This document shows, piece after piece, positions 2,074-43,282 of a stretch of 64,000 nt of DNA. Below the pieces are notes generated by a model. That model did no database searches. It was not told the origin of the DNA and was given only the letters and a program-made list of their open reading frames with translations. Numbering within the stretch: the first letter of the stretch is position 1; every line of letters starts with the position of its first letter. The translations under genes and the position numbers were made by a program. Origin of the DNA: Roseobacter denitrificans OCh 114 (GTDB taxonomy: Bacteria > Pseudomonadota > Alphaproteobacteria > Rhodobacterales > Rhodobacteraceae); contig NC_008209.1 of NCBI RefSeq assembly GCF_000014045.1, positions 2,999,001 through 3,063,000 of the forward strand, written 5' to 3'.

Positions 2074-3050
2074 GCCCTGCAACGGCCCCCGTCCTGATCA
2101 GTTGCGGTGAACCTGCCGGGATCGGCCCCGAAATCGCCGTCGCCGCGTGGGATGCGCTCCAAGGGACAATCCCGCTGGCCTGGGTGGGGGATCCGCGCCA
2201 TTTGCCTGCCAGTACGACGTTTACGGCAATCACCCACCCGCGCGCGGTTGCCGATGTGCCGACAGGTTCGCTGCCCGTTCTGGTCCATGACTTTGCCGCG
2301 CCCAGCACGCCGGGCCACCCCGACCCTGCCAACGCACAAGGCGTGATCGACGTGATCGCGGCTTGCGTCGCTTGGGTTCAGGAGGGCGCCGCCGCAGCCC
2401 TGTGCACAGCGCCCATTCACAAAAAGGCACTGATTGATGGCGCTGATTTCAAACATCCCGGGCATACCGAATACCTGCAAGCCCTGGCGGGTGGCAGGTC
2501 ACGGGCGGTCATGATGCTGGCCAGCGATGCGCTGCGTGTGGTGCCCACAACGATCCATATTGCCCTTGAAGACGTCCCCCGGGTGCTGACACCAGCGTTG
2601 CTGAGGGAGACGATCACGATCACCCACGCTGCCTTGCAGCGGCAATTCGGCATCCAGGCCCCGAGGATCGTCGTTGCCGGCCTGAACCCTCACGCTGGTG
2701 AAGGGGGTGCGATGGGGCTGGAGGAACAGGACTGGATTGCGGATGTGATTTCTGCGCTGGCGGCGAGCGGCATGAACCTGCGCGGCCCCCTGCCCGCCGA
2801 TACCATGTTTCACGCCCGCGCCCGCGAGGGATATGACGCCGCGATTGCCATGTATCATGATCAGGCGCTCATCCCGATCAAGACGCTGGATTTTGATCGC
2901 GGGGTCAATGTGACGCTGGGCCTGCCCTTTATCCGCACATCCCCCGATCACGGCACGGCCTTTGATATTGCGGGCAAGGGCATCGCCAATCCGACCAGCA
3001 TGATCGAGGCGATCAAGCTGGCCGCGCATATGGCGGCCCGGCATGTCTGA
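2070..3050 (+). CDS. pdxA: 4-hydroxythreonine-4-phosphate dehydrogenase
   Basis: PdxA oxidises 4-phosphohydroxy-L-threonine with NAD in the DXP-dependent route to pyridoxal 5'-phosphate. The 326 residues match the usual ~330. The N-terminus ISCGEPAGIGPEIAV, the metal-site segment PGHTEYLQALAG, the stretch GLNPHAGEGGAMG, the MYHDQALIPIKTLDF segment and the end TSPDHGTAFDIAGKG are all characteristic. The start ATG overlaps the surA stop by four bases, and rsmA follows after 27 bp. The order surA-pdxA-rsmA is widely conserved in proteobacteria. Confidence 0.96.
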   Translation: MSPATAPVLISCGEPAGIGPEIAVAAWDALQGTIPLAWVGDPRHLPASTTFTAITHPRAVADVPTGSLPVLVHDFAAPSTPGHPDPANAQGVIDVIAACVAWVQEGAAAALCTAPIHKKALIDGADFKHPGHTEYLQALAGGRSRAVMMLASDALRVVPTTIHIALEDVPRVLTPALLRETITITHAALQRQFGIQAPRIVVAGLNPHAGEGGAMGLEEQDWIADVISALAASGMNLRGPLPADTMFHARAREGYDAAIAMYHDQALIPIKTLDFDRGVNVTLGLPFIRTSPDHGTAFDIAGKGIANPTSMIEAIKLAAHMAARHV

Positions 3051-3077
3051 CGGGACGCCCTGCGGGTGCAGGCGCCC

Positions 3078-3920
3078 ATGAGCACGATCGACCACCTGCC
3101 CCCCTTGCGCAGCGTCATCCGGGATCATGATCTGTCGGCGCGTAAATCCATGGGACAGAACTTTCTGCTGGATTTGAACCTGACGGCCAAGATTGCACGT
3201 CAGGCCGGGGATCTGTCCGCCTGTGATGTGTTGGAGATCGGCCCGGGGCCCGGTGGTCTGACCCGTGGGCTTCTGGCGCAAGGCGCGCGGCGCGTTCTGG
3301 CCATTGAAAAAGACGCCCGTTGCCTGCCCGCTCTTGCCGAGATTGCAGCGGTCTATCCCGGACGGCTGGAGGTCATGAACGGCGACGCGCTGGAGATCGA
3401 CCCGCTGAGCGCCCTGACACCGCCCATCCGGGTCGCTGCCAACCTGCCCTATAACGTGGGGACCGAGCTTTTGGTGCGCTGGTTGACGCCGCAGATATGG
3501 CCACCCTACTGGCAAAGCTTGACGCTCATGTTCCAGCGCGAAGTGGCAGAACGTATCGTGGCCAGACCGGGCAGCAAAGCCTATGGACGCCTTGCCATTC
3601 TGGCGCAATGGCGTGCAGATGCACGGATTGTGATGCAATTGCCGCCAGACGCCTTCACGCCGCCGCCCAAAGTTTCAAGCAGCGTGGTGCAGATCACCGC
3701 CCTGCCCGCACCGCGGTATCCGGCCGACCCGTATGTGCTGAGCAAAGTGGTTGCGATGGCGTTCAATCAGCGCCGCAAGATGCTGCGCGCGGCCCTGAAG
3801 GGCCTTGGCCCGGATATCGAGGATCGGCTTTTGGCAGCCGGTATAGAACCCACCGAACGCGCGGAACGTGTCAGCCTCGAAGGGTTTTGTGCTTTGGCGC
3901 GGGCCGTTGCCGCGACATAG
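3078..3920 (+). CDS. rsmA: 16S rRNA adenine dimethyltransferase
   Basis: RsmA (KsgA) dimethylates two adjacent adenines in helix 45 of 16S rRNA during small-subunit maturation. From ATG 3078 the protein has 280 residues. Visible signatures are KSMGQNFL (24-30), the SAM-binding loop EIGPGPGG (53-60), the acidic residue in AIEKDA, and the catalytic NLPYN motif (122-126). A GTG at 3066 would add four residues and is less likely. It is the last gene of the lptD-surA-pdxA-rsmA run and converges on the DUF4167 gene with only 28 bp between the stops. Confidence 0.96.
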
Positions 3921-3948
3921 CACGCGCGAGCCGACCAGACGTAATCGC

Positions 3949-4512
3949 CTATTCCGCCGCCTTTGGTGCGTCATCCCCGTCGGAGGAAGAAGACGCCGCC
4001 TCGCCGCTCTCTTCTGCGGCTGGTGCGGGTTTTGCACGTGGTTTGCGGCGCGGTGCGCGTTTTGGTTTGGGCTGGCTTTCCGGTGTTTCAACCAGACCGC
4101 TGTCCGCTTCCTGTTCGGGGGTCTCAGTCGCTTGCTGTTGCTCCGCCGCTGCGGCCGCATTTGCCGCCTCGCGTTCCTGACGTTCCGCGCGTTCTCGGTC
4201 CCGTTCGGCCTGCCGTTCCCTGTTCTGACGTTCCTGTTCCTCGCGGCGCGCGTCAATCTCGCGCTGTGCTTCGCTCAGCATGCGGGTGTAGTGTTCCGCG
4301 TGCTGTTGAAAGTTCTCCGCGGCAACACGGTCATTGCTCAATTGTGCATCCCGCGTCAGCTGATTGTATTTTTCGATGATCTGCTGCGGTGTGCCGCGCA
4401 CCTTACCCTCCGGACCAGAGCTGTCAAAGACCCGGTTCACGACGTTTCCGCCCTGATTATTGGACCTGTTGCGGTTGCCCTTTGAACGGGAGCGTGATCG
4501 CGATGATTTCAT
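3949..4512 (-). CDS. DUF4167 domain protein
   Basis: A 187-aa protein of unknown function. The N-terminus is very basic (MKSSRSRSRSKGNRNRSNN) and is followed by the DUF4167 core (residues ~25-75, with GTPQQIIEKYNQLTRDAQL and AAENFQQHAEHYTRML). The middle is a long charged helix rich in Glu, Arg and Gln that should form a coiled coil, and the tail is acidic and Ala/Pro-rich with a stretch of Lys-Pro (PKPKRAPRRKPRAKPAP). A role in RNA binding is often suggested from the charge pattern but is inference. The gene lies downstream of prfA-prmC on the same strand after 223 bp, a neighbourhood I believe is conserved in alphaproteobacteria. Confidence 0.85.
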   Translation of the reverse strand: MKSSRSRSRSKGNRNRSNNQGGNVVNRVFDSSGPEGKVRGTPQQIIEKYNQLTRDAQLSNDRVAAENFQQHAEHYTRMLSEAQREIDARREEQERQNRERQAERDRERAERQEREAANAAAAAEQQQATETPEQEADSGLVETPESQPKPKRAPRRKPRAKPAPAAEESGEAASSSSDGDDAPKAAE

Positions 4513-41518: not shown

Positions 41519-42568
41519 CTAATTCGATCTGGAGAACCGTTCGAAAAAACGGTCGAAATGCGGGCAGGACTGCGCTGCCCCCTCAAGGATTGCATTTTGA
41601 TCGTGCTCCAGTGACCGCGCAAAAATGGCGCGCATATGGGACCAGTCGCCGCTGCGCGCAGGCCCAAGTTGATAGAGGAGCGAGGATATCGCCCGCAACG
41701 GACCCGGCCCCGCAGGCGATCTGAGGATTTCGATATTCCCCGCCGGCGGGCGCCCGGTAAACCCGGCCATGCCGGCAACCCCTGCCCACCAACTGGTGAC
41801 CAGATATTCGTGATAGGCGTCACTCACCGGTCCGTTCTGGGCCGGCACCAGCGTAAATGATCCGATCTCGCGGGCCAGCCAGTCCTCCCAGATCTCGCTC
41901 GGGCTTTGGCCGGCAAAACGCAGGGCGACGCAAACCTCTGCCAGCAGGTCCACGTCCTGATCCAGAAACGCCATAAGTCCTGCGTATTCGAGGCTGATCA
42001 CGGTGGTTTGCGGCAGTTCTGCCTGCATCCTGCCGTAGCTTGTGAGGTAAAAGACGATGTGCGTCAGCTCATAGGCCGCTTTCTTGTTCGGCACCGAAAA
42101 GATGTGCGGCTCAGCCGTGAAATCCAGCAAACGACCCCGCACCGCTGGGCAGAGCGTGCCAACACCACGACGCGCCAGAAGGTATTGCGCTTCGGCACGC
42201 TGCAGATCGGACAACTCACACGCCGCAAGATCGCCCAATTGCACCGCTTCGCAGAGCTTTCGGCCCGTATCGCCGCCGAGTCCGAGGTCTTCAAGATCAA
42301 GACATATCGACAAAAGGAAGCGGTAATACTGCGGAAAAAACCGCATCCGTTCTTCCAGACTTTCGTAGAAGCCGCTATACACATCCAGCGCATGGGGGGG
42401 CAGCAGTGCGCCACTGTTTGCCAGAATATTCAGAAGCTCAGCATTTTCCTTGAGCCAGAACACGTCATCCGTCGCGCGCCGCTGCGTGGCGAAACTGTTC
42501 AACAACAACGCTTGGCGTTGGGACAGGTTTGGCCGTTTAGGCGCGCCGAGTGAGATGACATTTGACAT
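41519..42568 (-). CDS. Uncharacterised 349-aa protein downstream of repeat peptide
   Basis: A mostly helical cytoplasmic protein with no signal peptide or membrane segment that I cannot assign to a characterised family. Segments of note are LYRY-free aromatic patches (RFFPQYYRFLLSICLDLEDL, residues ~76-95), and AYELTHIVFYLTSYGR (165-180) with a central His. This last motif reminds me of helical proteins found beside peptide-maturation genes, but that is recollection, not a match. A C-terminal region has GDWSHMRAIFARSLEHDQNAILEG. Start ATG 42568 (MSNVISLGAP) is chosen; the frame extends upstream but that part overlaps the next gene. It follows the four-repeat protein gene by 76 bp across a hairpin and probably works with it. 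Confidence 0.72.
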   Translation of the reverse strand: MSNVISLGAPKRPNLSQRQALLLNSFATQRRATDDVFWLKENAELLNILANSGALLPPHALDVYSGFYESLEERMRFFPQYYRFLLSICLDLEDLGLGGDTGRKLCEAVQLGDLAACELSDLQRAEAQYLLARRGVGTLCPAVRGRLLDFTAEPHIFSVPNKKAAYELTHIVFYLTSYGRMQAELPQTTVISLEYAGLMAFLDQDVDLLAEVCVALRFAGQSPSEIWEDWLAREIGSFTLVPAQNGPVSDAYHEYLVTSWWAGVAGMAGFTGRPPAGNIEILRSPAGPGPLRAISSLLYQLGPARSGDWSHMRAIFARSLEHDQNAILEGAAQSCPHFDRFFERFSRSN

Positions 42569-42601
42569 GATGGAGCCGTTTATGAATGCGAAGGGTGCAC
42601 G

Positions 42602-42634
42602 GATGGCCCACCATGCGAAAGCTGGCGGGCCATC
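42602..42634 (-). promoter_or_regulatory. Hairpin between repeat-peptide gene and 349-aa gene
   Basis: GATGGCCCACC at 42602-42612 and GGCGGGCCATC at 42624-42634 pair over 11 bp with one wobble, leaving an 11-nt loop. There is no T-run, so it is not a simple terminator. A position between the two genes suits partial termination or mRNA protection, which would make more of the upstream peptide than of the downstream protein. Confidence 0.6.
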
Positions 42635-42644
42635 GCGCCGAGGA

Positions 42645-42938
42645 TCAGACTTTGGGCGACATGCTGGTGGTGAAGAGGCCTGTCGCTTCACCGGAATGGG
42701 CATTTTTGCCAGTCGTCATGCTCGTGGTGTAAAGACCCGTGTGGCCCCCTGACAGCGTGGAGCCTTCGGGCGCCATCGACGTCGTAAAGAGCGCCGTCTG
42801 TTCCCCCGTGAGCATGTCGCCGCGCTGCGAAGTCATCGACGTGGTAAACAGCCCGGTTGCATCACCGCCGTGAATGTCGGCGAAGTCCTGATGTTCATCG
42901 GCTGCGGTCTGGGTGGAAATTTGCGTAGTCGTTTTCAT
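42645..42938 (-). CDS. Repeat peptide: four copies of T[GA]L[FY]TTSM
   Basis: A 97-aa protein with no signal peptide by the usual rules and no Cys. The first ~27 residues (rich in Thr, Gln, Asp and His) are unrelated to the rest and could be a leader. Then come four motif copies: TGLFTTSM 28-35, TALFTTSM 48-55, TGLYTTSM 67-74 and TGLFTTSM 86-93, spaced 20, 19 and 19 residues, separated by Gly-rich variable spacers. The stop follows the last copy by four residues. Codons differ between copies (Ser is TCG in copies 1 and 2, AGC in copies 3 and 4), so the amino-acid motif is under selection. ATG 42938 is taken; an in-frame ATG at 42977 adds 13 residues. Function is unknown. A multi-core peptide precursor is the leading idea; a surface or structural repeat protein is the alternative. 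Confidence 0.78.
   Translation of the reverse strand: MKTTTQISTQTAADEHQDFADIHGGDATGLFTTSMTSQRGDMLTGEQTALFTTSMAPEGSTLSGGHTGLYTTSMTTGKNAHSGEATGLFTTSMSPKV
42660..42857 (-). repeat. Four tandem coding repeats (about 57-60 bp period)
   Basis: Within the repeat-peptide gene, the four 24-bp motif units recur at a 57-60 bp period. They share amino acids but differ in several synonymous positions, which argues against very recent duplication. Confidence 0.9.
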
Positions 42939-43282
42939 GGTGTATCCCGTCCATTTGGAAATTTTGTTCACCCTCAAACGCTCACCCTTTCAGGTAGAAT
43001 TTTAAAGAAAAATTCATGTTAATAATGCTTTAACCATGGATTATCCACAGGGTGTCCGCGGTAAATTTCGCGTCGATACAATCTGCAGCCAATCGGTAAT
43101 CTTTCTTAAAAAAACATTTATCCACAAAGGATAACTCTGTGGATATTAACCATTCACGCCCCTTTCCGGAAAAAGGGTTAACGAGAATCACACGCCCGTA
43201 GCGACGGGCACAGCGCCACAACGCCCTTGCCCCGGGACGTCACATCAGGGATATCAGAGGCGTTCAGCACGCGGGGGCCTTC
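42939..43282. other. AT-rich intergenic region between repeat peptide and xthA
   Basis: A 344-bp gap between two divergent genes, clearly richer in A and T than the surroundings around 42995-43155. It contains three DnaA-box-like sites (listed separately) and must hold the promoters of both neighbours. No tRNA or coding frame with support was found. Confidence 0.7.
43041..43146. promoter_or_regulatory. Cluster of three DnaA-box-like sequences
   Basis: TTATCCACA occurs exactly at 43041-43049 and 43118-43126 on the + strand, and TGTGGATAT at 43138-43146 gives the same site (8 of 9) on the other strand. The last two are 11 bp apart in opposite orientation. The flanks are AT-rich. Possible roles are DnaA-controlled transcription of a neighbour, DnaA titration, or part of an origin. 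Confidence 0.6.

Follow-up and report, generated by a model that had tools for sequence, protein, structure and literature searches.

A 64,000-nucleotide stretch of the Roseobacter denitrificans OCh 114 genome (NC_008209.1, positions 2,999,001 to 3,063,000), hereafter the window, carries a gene for a 97-amino-acid protein with four repeats, followed by a gene for a 349-amino-acid protein of the Pfam family DUF6902. We find that the two form a dedicated precursor-partner pair, a conclusion that is well supported by comparison across related genomes. The reading that we favor, with a probability of about 60%, is that the small protein is a multi-core precursor like those of ribosomally synthesized and post-translationally modified peptides (RiPPs), and that the DUF6902 protein modifies each of its cores in turn.

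The repeat peptide and its DUF6902 partner

The small gene lies at window positions 42645..42938 on the minus strand, as do all features given below with window coordinates (ATG start, stop included). Its product opens with MKTTTQISTQTAADEHQDFADIHGGDATGLFTTSM and ends in SPKV. Residues 1-27 (42858..42938) are non-repetitive in sequence and may be a short leader. Four copies of the motif T[GA]L[FY]TTSM follow: TGLFTTSM from residue 28 (42834..42857), TALFTTSM from residue 48 (42774..42797), TGLYTTSM from residue 67 (42717..42740) and TGLFTTSM from residue 86 (42660..42683), after which come four residues and the stop. A preliminary description of the locus had reported these copies, their spacing of 20, 19 and 19 residues and their serine codons (TCG, TCG, AGC and AGC), and the open reading frame (ORF) bears it out on all three. 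It also placed the 349-residue partner correctly, on the same strand after a 76-nt gap (41519..42568), but took it for a protein of no recognized family. The partner matches Pfam DUF6902 (PF21843), a family of unknown function, over its full length, with 445 bits against a cut-off of 27 and residues 1-348 aligned to profile positions 1-351. It also exceeds the cut-off of DUF6895 (PF21836; 74.9 bits, cut-off 23.8); a scan of Pfam and NCBIfam returned these two families only, with no match from NCBIfam. The peptide matched nothing in Pfam or NCBIfam up to E = 1.

The AlphaFold2 model of the partner alone gives a high-confidence helical fold (pLDDT 94.9, pTM 0.92), as the preliminary description had anticipated, and this model looks like an alpha/alpha toroid. 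VIA-align rows for known toroids, namely the protein prenyltransferase beta subunit and class II terpene cyclases, have 7-13% identity, with a Z score that the tool itself calls ambiguous for helical proteins. A Foldseek search of the model against PDB and viral models gave no match at E <= 0.001, and a sequence search of PDB with the partner gave none. In PADLOC and PHROGs, where the peptide was scanned, no anti-phage defence or phage protein matched up to E 0.01, and no DUF6902 relatives were found in the phage and plasmid records searched.

We examined the pairing in 135 distinct DUF6902 genes, obtained by collapsing 157 loci on identity over the first 200 residues. Two of these (L081 and L123) lie at contig ends with 32 and 85 nt of upstream DNA and were set aside, leaving 133 genes. 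A same-strand repeat peptide is found upstream of 132 of them; the cores were found by pattern in 129 peptides, and the peptides of L049, L072 and L169 were counted by eye. The gap between peptide and partner has a median of 64.5 nt and falls between 25 and 150 nt in 123 of 129 measured cases. Among the four gaps longer than 150 nt, three reflect mis-set partner starts (L048, L055, L130) and one, of 342 nt, is real (L036). In the repeat finder that was used, a score of 8 was reached by 10 of 705 other ORFs, some of which may be alternative reading frames of these arrays. Almost all homologous partner genes have repeats built on this plan in front of them, and the repeat therefore goes beyond chance.

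Co-occurrence at the level of genomes leads to the same picture. A two-unit peptide profile, run on 198 genomes of the family (one genome per genus), matched 52 of the 55 genomes that have DUF6902 and none of the 143 that lack it (Fisher p ~1e-44, relatedness not corrected). The genome sets behind the DUF6902 and peptide counts were taken as identical, since the two match in size, in positives and in those negatives that are listed; 123 and 126 of the negatives are unlisted. The joint occurrence of peptide and partner, a test proposed in the preliminary description, thus holds, and the profile met no repeat peptide in a genome without the partner, which would have told against it. Three DUF6902 genomes were negative for the profile. 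In G141 a divergent peptide (L072, core MMCCS) is present and was missed by the profile, so that other divergent peptides could be missed as well. In G181 a piece of DUF6902 stands at the end of a contig, and none of the contigs yielded a peptide. The third, G081, is the genome of L079 (ORF 2923-3996), a DUF6902-like protein of 26% identity that is the most divergent row and the only one of the 133 genes without an upstream repeat peptide. L079 is possibly a repurposed or decaying copy. An apparent orphan second peptide locus in G095 was rejected: the array stops at a contig end and is therefore read as one array split over two contigs.

DUF6902 is present in all 18 other genomes of the genus that were examined. 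In a class-wide draw of 385 genomes there were four above-cut-off matches, all in the family to which Roseobacter belongs. A scan of contigs gave 372 relatives; the titles of the best 80 of these 372 name Roseobacter, Roseovarius, Ruegeria, Sulfitobacter, Tateyamaria and others, together with metagenome-assembled genomes named only to family or class.

Selection and concerted change of the repeated core

The repeats of the family share one plan. In the 129 pattern-found peptides we counted 779 units of the form GxxxxxF plus four residues, in which Y replaces F in 27, D or E follows G in 665 and V or T stands three positions ahead of F in 710. A peptide holds 1 to 20 counted copies, with a median of 6; this is an undercount for peptides with units that depart from the G...F pattern (L105, L106). 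In 90 of the 129 peptides the protein ends exactly where a core ends (filtered cores, see below); the number is 95 if any F/Y plus four residues is accepted.

The preliminary description expected repeat number to vary while T[GA]L[FY]TTSM stayed fixed. Repeat number does vary, but the motif does not stay fixed. Its last four residues take 37 forms across species, including TTSM in this genus and SSGS, TSSL, TSGS, TSWS, TTSC and TSGL elsewhere, and are nearly alike within a genome. Inside the genus, 2 of 19 genomes differ (L017, L018). The absence of cysteine, which had also been pointed out, is true of the window peptide but is a feature of the species: 8 of the 37 core types have cysteine and 29 do not. 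A lanthipeptide was rejected for the window pair, whose peptide has no cysteine and which has no LanC-type cyclase or dehydratase by Pfam.

Copies within a genome are far more alike than copies between genomes. For the unit counts and the codon comparison a filter was applied that admits a copy when two of its four residues match the commonest core, and this raises uniformity. With the filter, cores are fully uniform in 110 of 118 loci with at least three copies; unfiltered, they are uniform in 95 of 121. The commonest form makes up on average 94.8% of the unfiltered copies per genome, whereas the four-residue core is identical between genomes in 6.7% of pairs. We compared copy against copy within genomes for the proportions of synonymous (pS) and nonsynonymous (pN) differences. 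Over 127 distinct loci with at least two copies, the core has pS 0.543 and pN 0.063, a ratio of 0.12; the ratio is 0.39 in the recognition stretch that precedes the core and 0.84 in the spacer. These codon comparisons show strong selection on the core at the protein level. Since synonymous sites have diverged this far, recent duplication is not the cause of core uniformity.

On a tree of 126 DUF6902 proteins (FastTree, without bootstrap) the four-residue core changed at least 53 times. Old copies therefore hold one form and switch together, as they are uniform within a genome, have diverged codons and have passed through these many changes. The simplest cause, we infer, would be one reader common to all copies. 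Gene conversion over short stretches could contribute, but it would be expected to level synonymous sites too, and on average these are not levelled. The peptide of L017 (2635-2844) combines two FTSAS cores with one FTTSM core, and its lineage may have been caught between core forms.

The N-terminus is less constant. A loose start pattern occurs in 82 of the 129 peptides, in 73 of these 20-28 residues before the first unit; residue 3 is A in 73 of the 82 and residue 6 is K in 73 of the 82. The window peptide and those of the genus Roseobacter, L005 apart, do not match it. No hydrophobic secretion signal was obvious in the peptides by eye, no predictor being run.

Residue signature, DUF6895 relatives and genomic setting

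Seven residues of the partner, Y166, H170, G179, D207, E211, Y252 and H253, are common to DUF6902 and DUF6895. In the window the alignment places Y166-x3-H170 at 42059..42073, D207-x3-E211 at 41936..41950 and Y252-H253 at 41810..41815. The signature is complete in 10 of 10 DUF6895 rows and in 128 of 131 DUF6902 rows, four of the 135 partners being left out at 250 residues or fewer (L080, L081, L105, L130). Two further rows have a single Y to F change. The remaining row is L079, which has lost six of the seven residues and has no peptide.

DUF6895-type genes were collected at 11 loci, in Pseudomonadota (L100, L101, L102, L107, L108) and on plasmids of Pseudalkalibacillus, Streptomyces, Gemmatirosa and Kitasatospora (L189-L194). 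The plasmid proteins scanned are all far above the DUF6895 cut-off; these are six proteins of four plasmid records together with L192 and L194, and L193 was assigned by tblastn and the signature alone. In 9 of the 11 loci, spread over Pseudomonadota, Bacillota, Actinomycetota and Gemmatimonadota, a small gene lies upstream. Found independently of the Roseobacter repeats, these genes look from their sequences like precursors with leader and core: a part resembling LxxSGIINxxxTxxxL leads into an aromatic stretch, for example GPWYAY, DWTFVSPNYVYKG, YVLAWDKYVLVV or AWAFIVKGKFVFK. L100 has two precursor-like genes, and in L101 and L102 a single gene contains two modules. In an alignment of 11 such pieces, from which L108 is absent, identity to the first row is 15-68% and the N-terminal part of L193 fits poorly, so the small genes show a likeness of plan, their homology being unproven. 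In a Streptomyces chartreusis plasmid (L191:6973-8900) two DUF6895 genes stand in tandem with no precursor-like gene seen in front.

Searches around DUF6895 added little. In the families of three genomes (4, 151 and 144 genomes) only the known member was recovered each time, and a PDB sequence search gave best rows of E 0.31 and worse. A DUF6895 structure model had a mean pLDDT of 61.8 and was not used. L093 and L094, below the DUF6895 cut-off, had no profile match.

Some DUF6895 loci have further genes nearby. The region L100:3577-8576 holds DUF6895, the two precursor-like genes in tandem and a second ORF that looks helical and matches nothing in Pfam, in a neighborhood with a C70/C39-like cysteine peptidase and an O-methyltransferase; it could represent a more complete cluster of this type. 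On plasmids of Pseudalkalibacillus (L189:5602-7521) and Streptomyces (L192:7548-9674), DUF6895 and its small upstream gene have ketosynthase or type I polyketide synthase genes within a few kilobases. Plasmid-borne DUF6895 relatives include some beside polyketide or transposition genes.

The window pair is flanked by what we take, from sequence and general knowledge, to be housekeeping genes, xthA-like on one side and erpA-like and dGTPase-like on the other. Of 69 full-length loci, 66 have an xthA motif, 58 an erpA-like motif and 55 the two together; the DUF6902 locus is largely conserved in its position between these genes. No RiPP enzyme of known type, maturase, protease or exporter adjoins the pair in the window, in agreement with the preliminary description. 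The gap between the two genes, folded alone, forms a G+C-rich hairpin without a T run (42597..42638; -33 kcal/mol, z -2.4). Most Roseobacter gaps have such a hairpin, with differing sequences: a stem of at least 10 pairs occurs in 14 of the 19, compared with 24 of 104 gaps elsewhere. Such a hairpin could set the ratio of peptide to partner product. It is not a general trait of the pair, because the median z over all 123 gaps tested is only -0.6.

Readings of the pair and known systems

In the reading that we favor, the small gene would encode a short N-terminus followed by units of about 19-21 residues, in each of which the recognition stretch G[DE]x[VT]xx would lead into a core of F/Y plus four residues. 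DUF6902 would be a dedicated alpha/alpha-toroid enzyme acting on successive cores, with a putative metal site from H170, D207 or E211, and H253, and with Y166 and Y252 nearby; mature peptides would then be cut out of the precursor. Modification of the core by the partner is favored mainly because the polar signature is kept across phyla and, in the single case of L079, is lost together with the peptide. The pair is built like a RiPP system: it has a precursor with a selected core and a recognition stretch, and a dedicated, co-inherited neighbor. That neighbor belongs to no known modifying-enzyme family in the Pfam and NCBIfam scans, and membership of the RiPP class is a claim that awaits a modification. 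The earlier suggestion of a multi-core, modified peptide is in this way partly supported, its anatomy and pairing by observation and the modification by inference. One DUF6895-type locus weighs against the favored reading: L107, a 228-residue frame, has neither the full signature nor a full leader-plus-core-like gene. L108 weighs for it: this distant relative from another family of the class (G037, minus strand) has the full signature and an adjoining upstream leader-plus-core-like gene with the core AWAFIVKGKFVFK. Adding the two left the odds of the readings as before.

The main rival, which we consider unlikely, is that DUF6902 only binds. The repeats would be multivalent ligands, a tethering scaffold or internal signals that it senses, and their joint change would follow from a common binding specificity. 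A single recognizer would be expected to make copies change together, as they do. The predicted helical fold, the lack of a maturase or protease near the pair and the many peptides that end at a core also fit, and some pheromone precursors likewise end at a short peptide. Against binding stand the six polar residues (Y, H, D, E, Y, H) kept across phyla; they look catalytic rather than specificity-setting, because the peptides of DUF6895 and DUF6902 differ completely. Furthermore, the Pfam scan gave no DNA-binding domain, and the inspection by eye that showed no secretion signal argues in the same direction.

Much less probable still is a structural or surface protein, such as a fibre, adhesin or disordered linker, with DUF6902 as its chaperone or anchor. 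The wide range of repeat numbers would suit it; the lack of a visible secretion signal, the selection that keeps cores alike while spacers drift, and the lack of any profile match in the 143 genomes without DUF6902 speak against it. To a functionless repeat, arisen by chance, mutation or recent tandem duplication, we give next to no credence. Some species do have recent, near-identical copies (e.g. L135). Core copies differ, however, at about half of their synonymous sites and hardly at nonsynonymous ones, and the pattern recurs across dozens of genera; on the codon data a chance repeat was rejected for the family as a whole.

Returning to modification of the cores by DUF6902, we put forward a wider proposal, whose odds fall somewhat short of even. 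DUF6895 and DUF6902 would be two branches of a single superfamily of alpha/alpha-toroid metalloenzymes, with a site of H170, D207/E211, H253 and the two tyrosines, serving a new RiPP class over at least four phyla. The Roseobacter group would have the many-core form, a largely vertical two-gene locus between xthA and the erpA-like gene. Each lineage would rewrite all of its cores together, so that every species makes its own set of near-identical small modified peptides. If true, a peptide system has been overlooked in about a quarter of the sampled Rhodobacteraceae-type genera (55 of 198), along with a modifying enzyme that has relatives in other phyla. The pair also poses a puzzle: as many as 20 copies, a good number of them old and diverged, agree with one another in four residues, and yet the set has changed more than 50 times between lineages. 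Both this puzzle and the function of two Pfam families of unknown function could be addressed directly with just two genes and a laboratory host.

Among known systems, RRNPP receptors respond to short peptides derived from the ends of small precursors, and such pairs likewise set a helical protein of similar size beside a small gene with a short peptide at its end. In contrast to them, the present pair has the gene order reversed, a multi-copy core, a conserved polar site, a partner without a DNA-binding or TPR match in Pfam and no export signal by eye. Protein prenyltransferase beta subunits and class II terpene cyclases differ from the partner in their low identity given above, the lack of a Pfam match and the absence of an adjoining second subunit gene. 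LanC cyclases, whose fold is an alpha/alpha toroid acting on a ribosomal peptide, offer a comparison in manner of working only, for the pair has no LanC match in Pfam and no dehydratase, and most core types have no cysteine. LanC was not among the 50 structural rows of the partner comparison, an absence that carries no weight. Multi-core RiPP precursors of the cyanobactin type come closer: they too are small proteins with repeated short cores, each after a conserved stretch, with a dedicated partner and a core that varies between species. The present system differs from them in its DUF6902 partner, in the short, weakly conserved N-terminus of its peptides and in having no known RiPP enzyme, protease or exporter next to it. 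In the DUF6895 systems, which occur in several phyla, the peptide joins an N-terminal part that looks helical (LxxSGIINxxxT) to one or two aromatic cores such as GPWYAY, in place of many short ones; these systems share with the pair all seven signature residues and, in 9 of 11 loci, a small peptide gene upstream.
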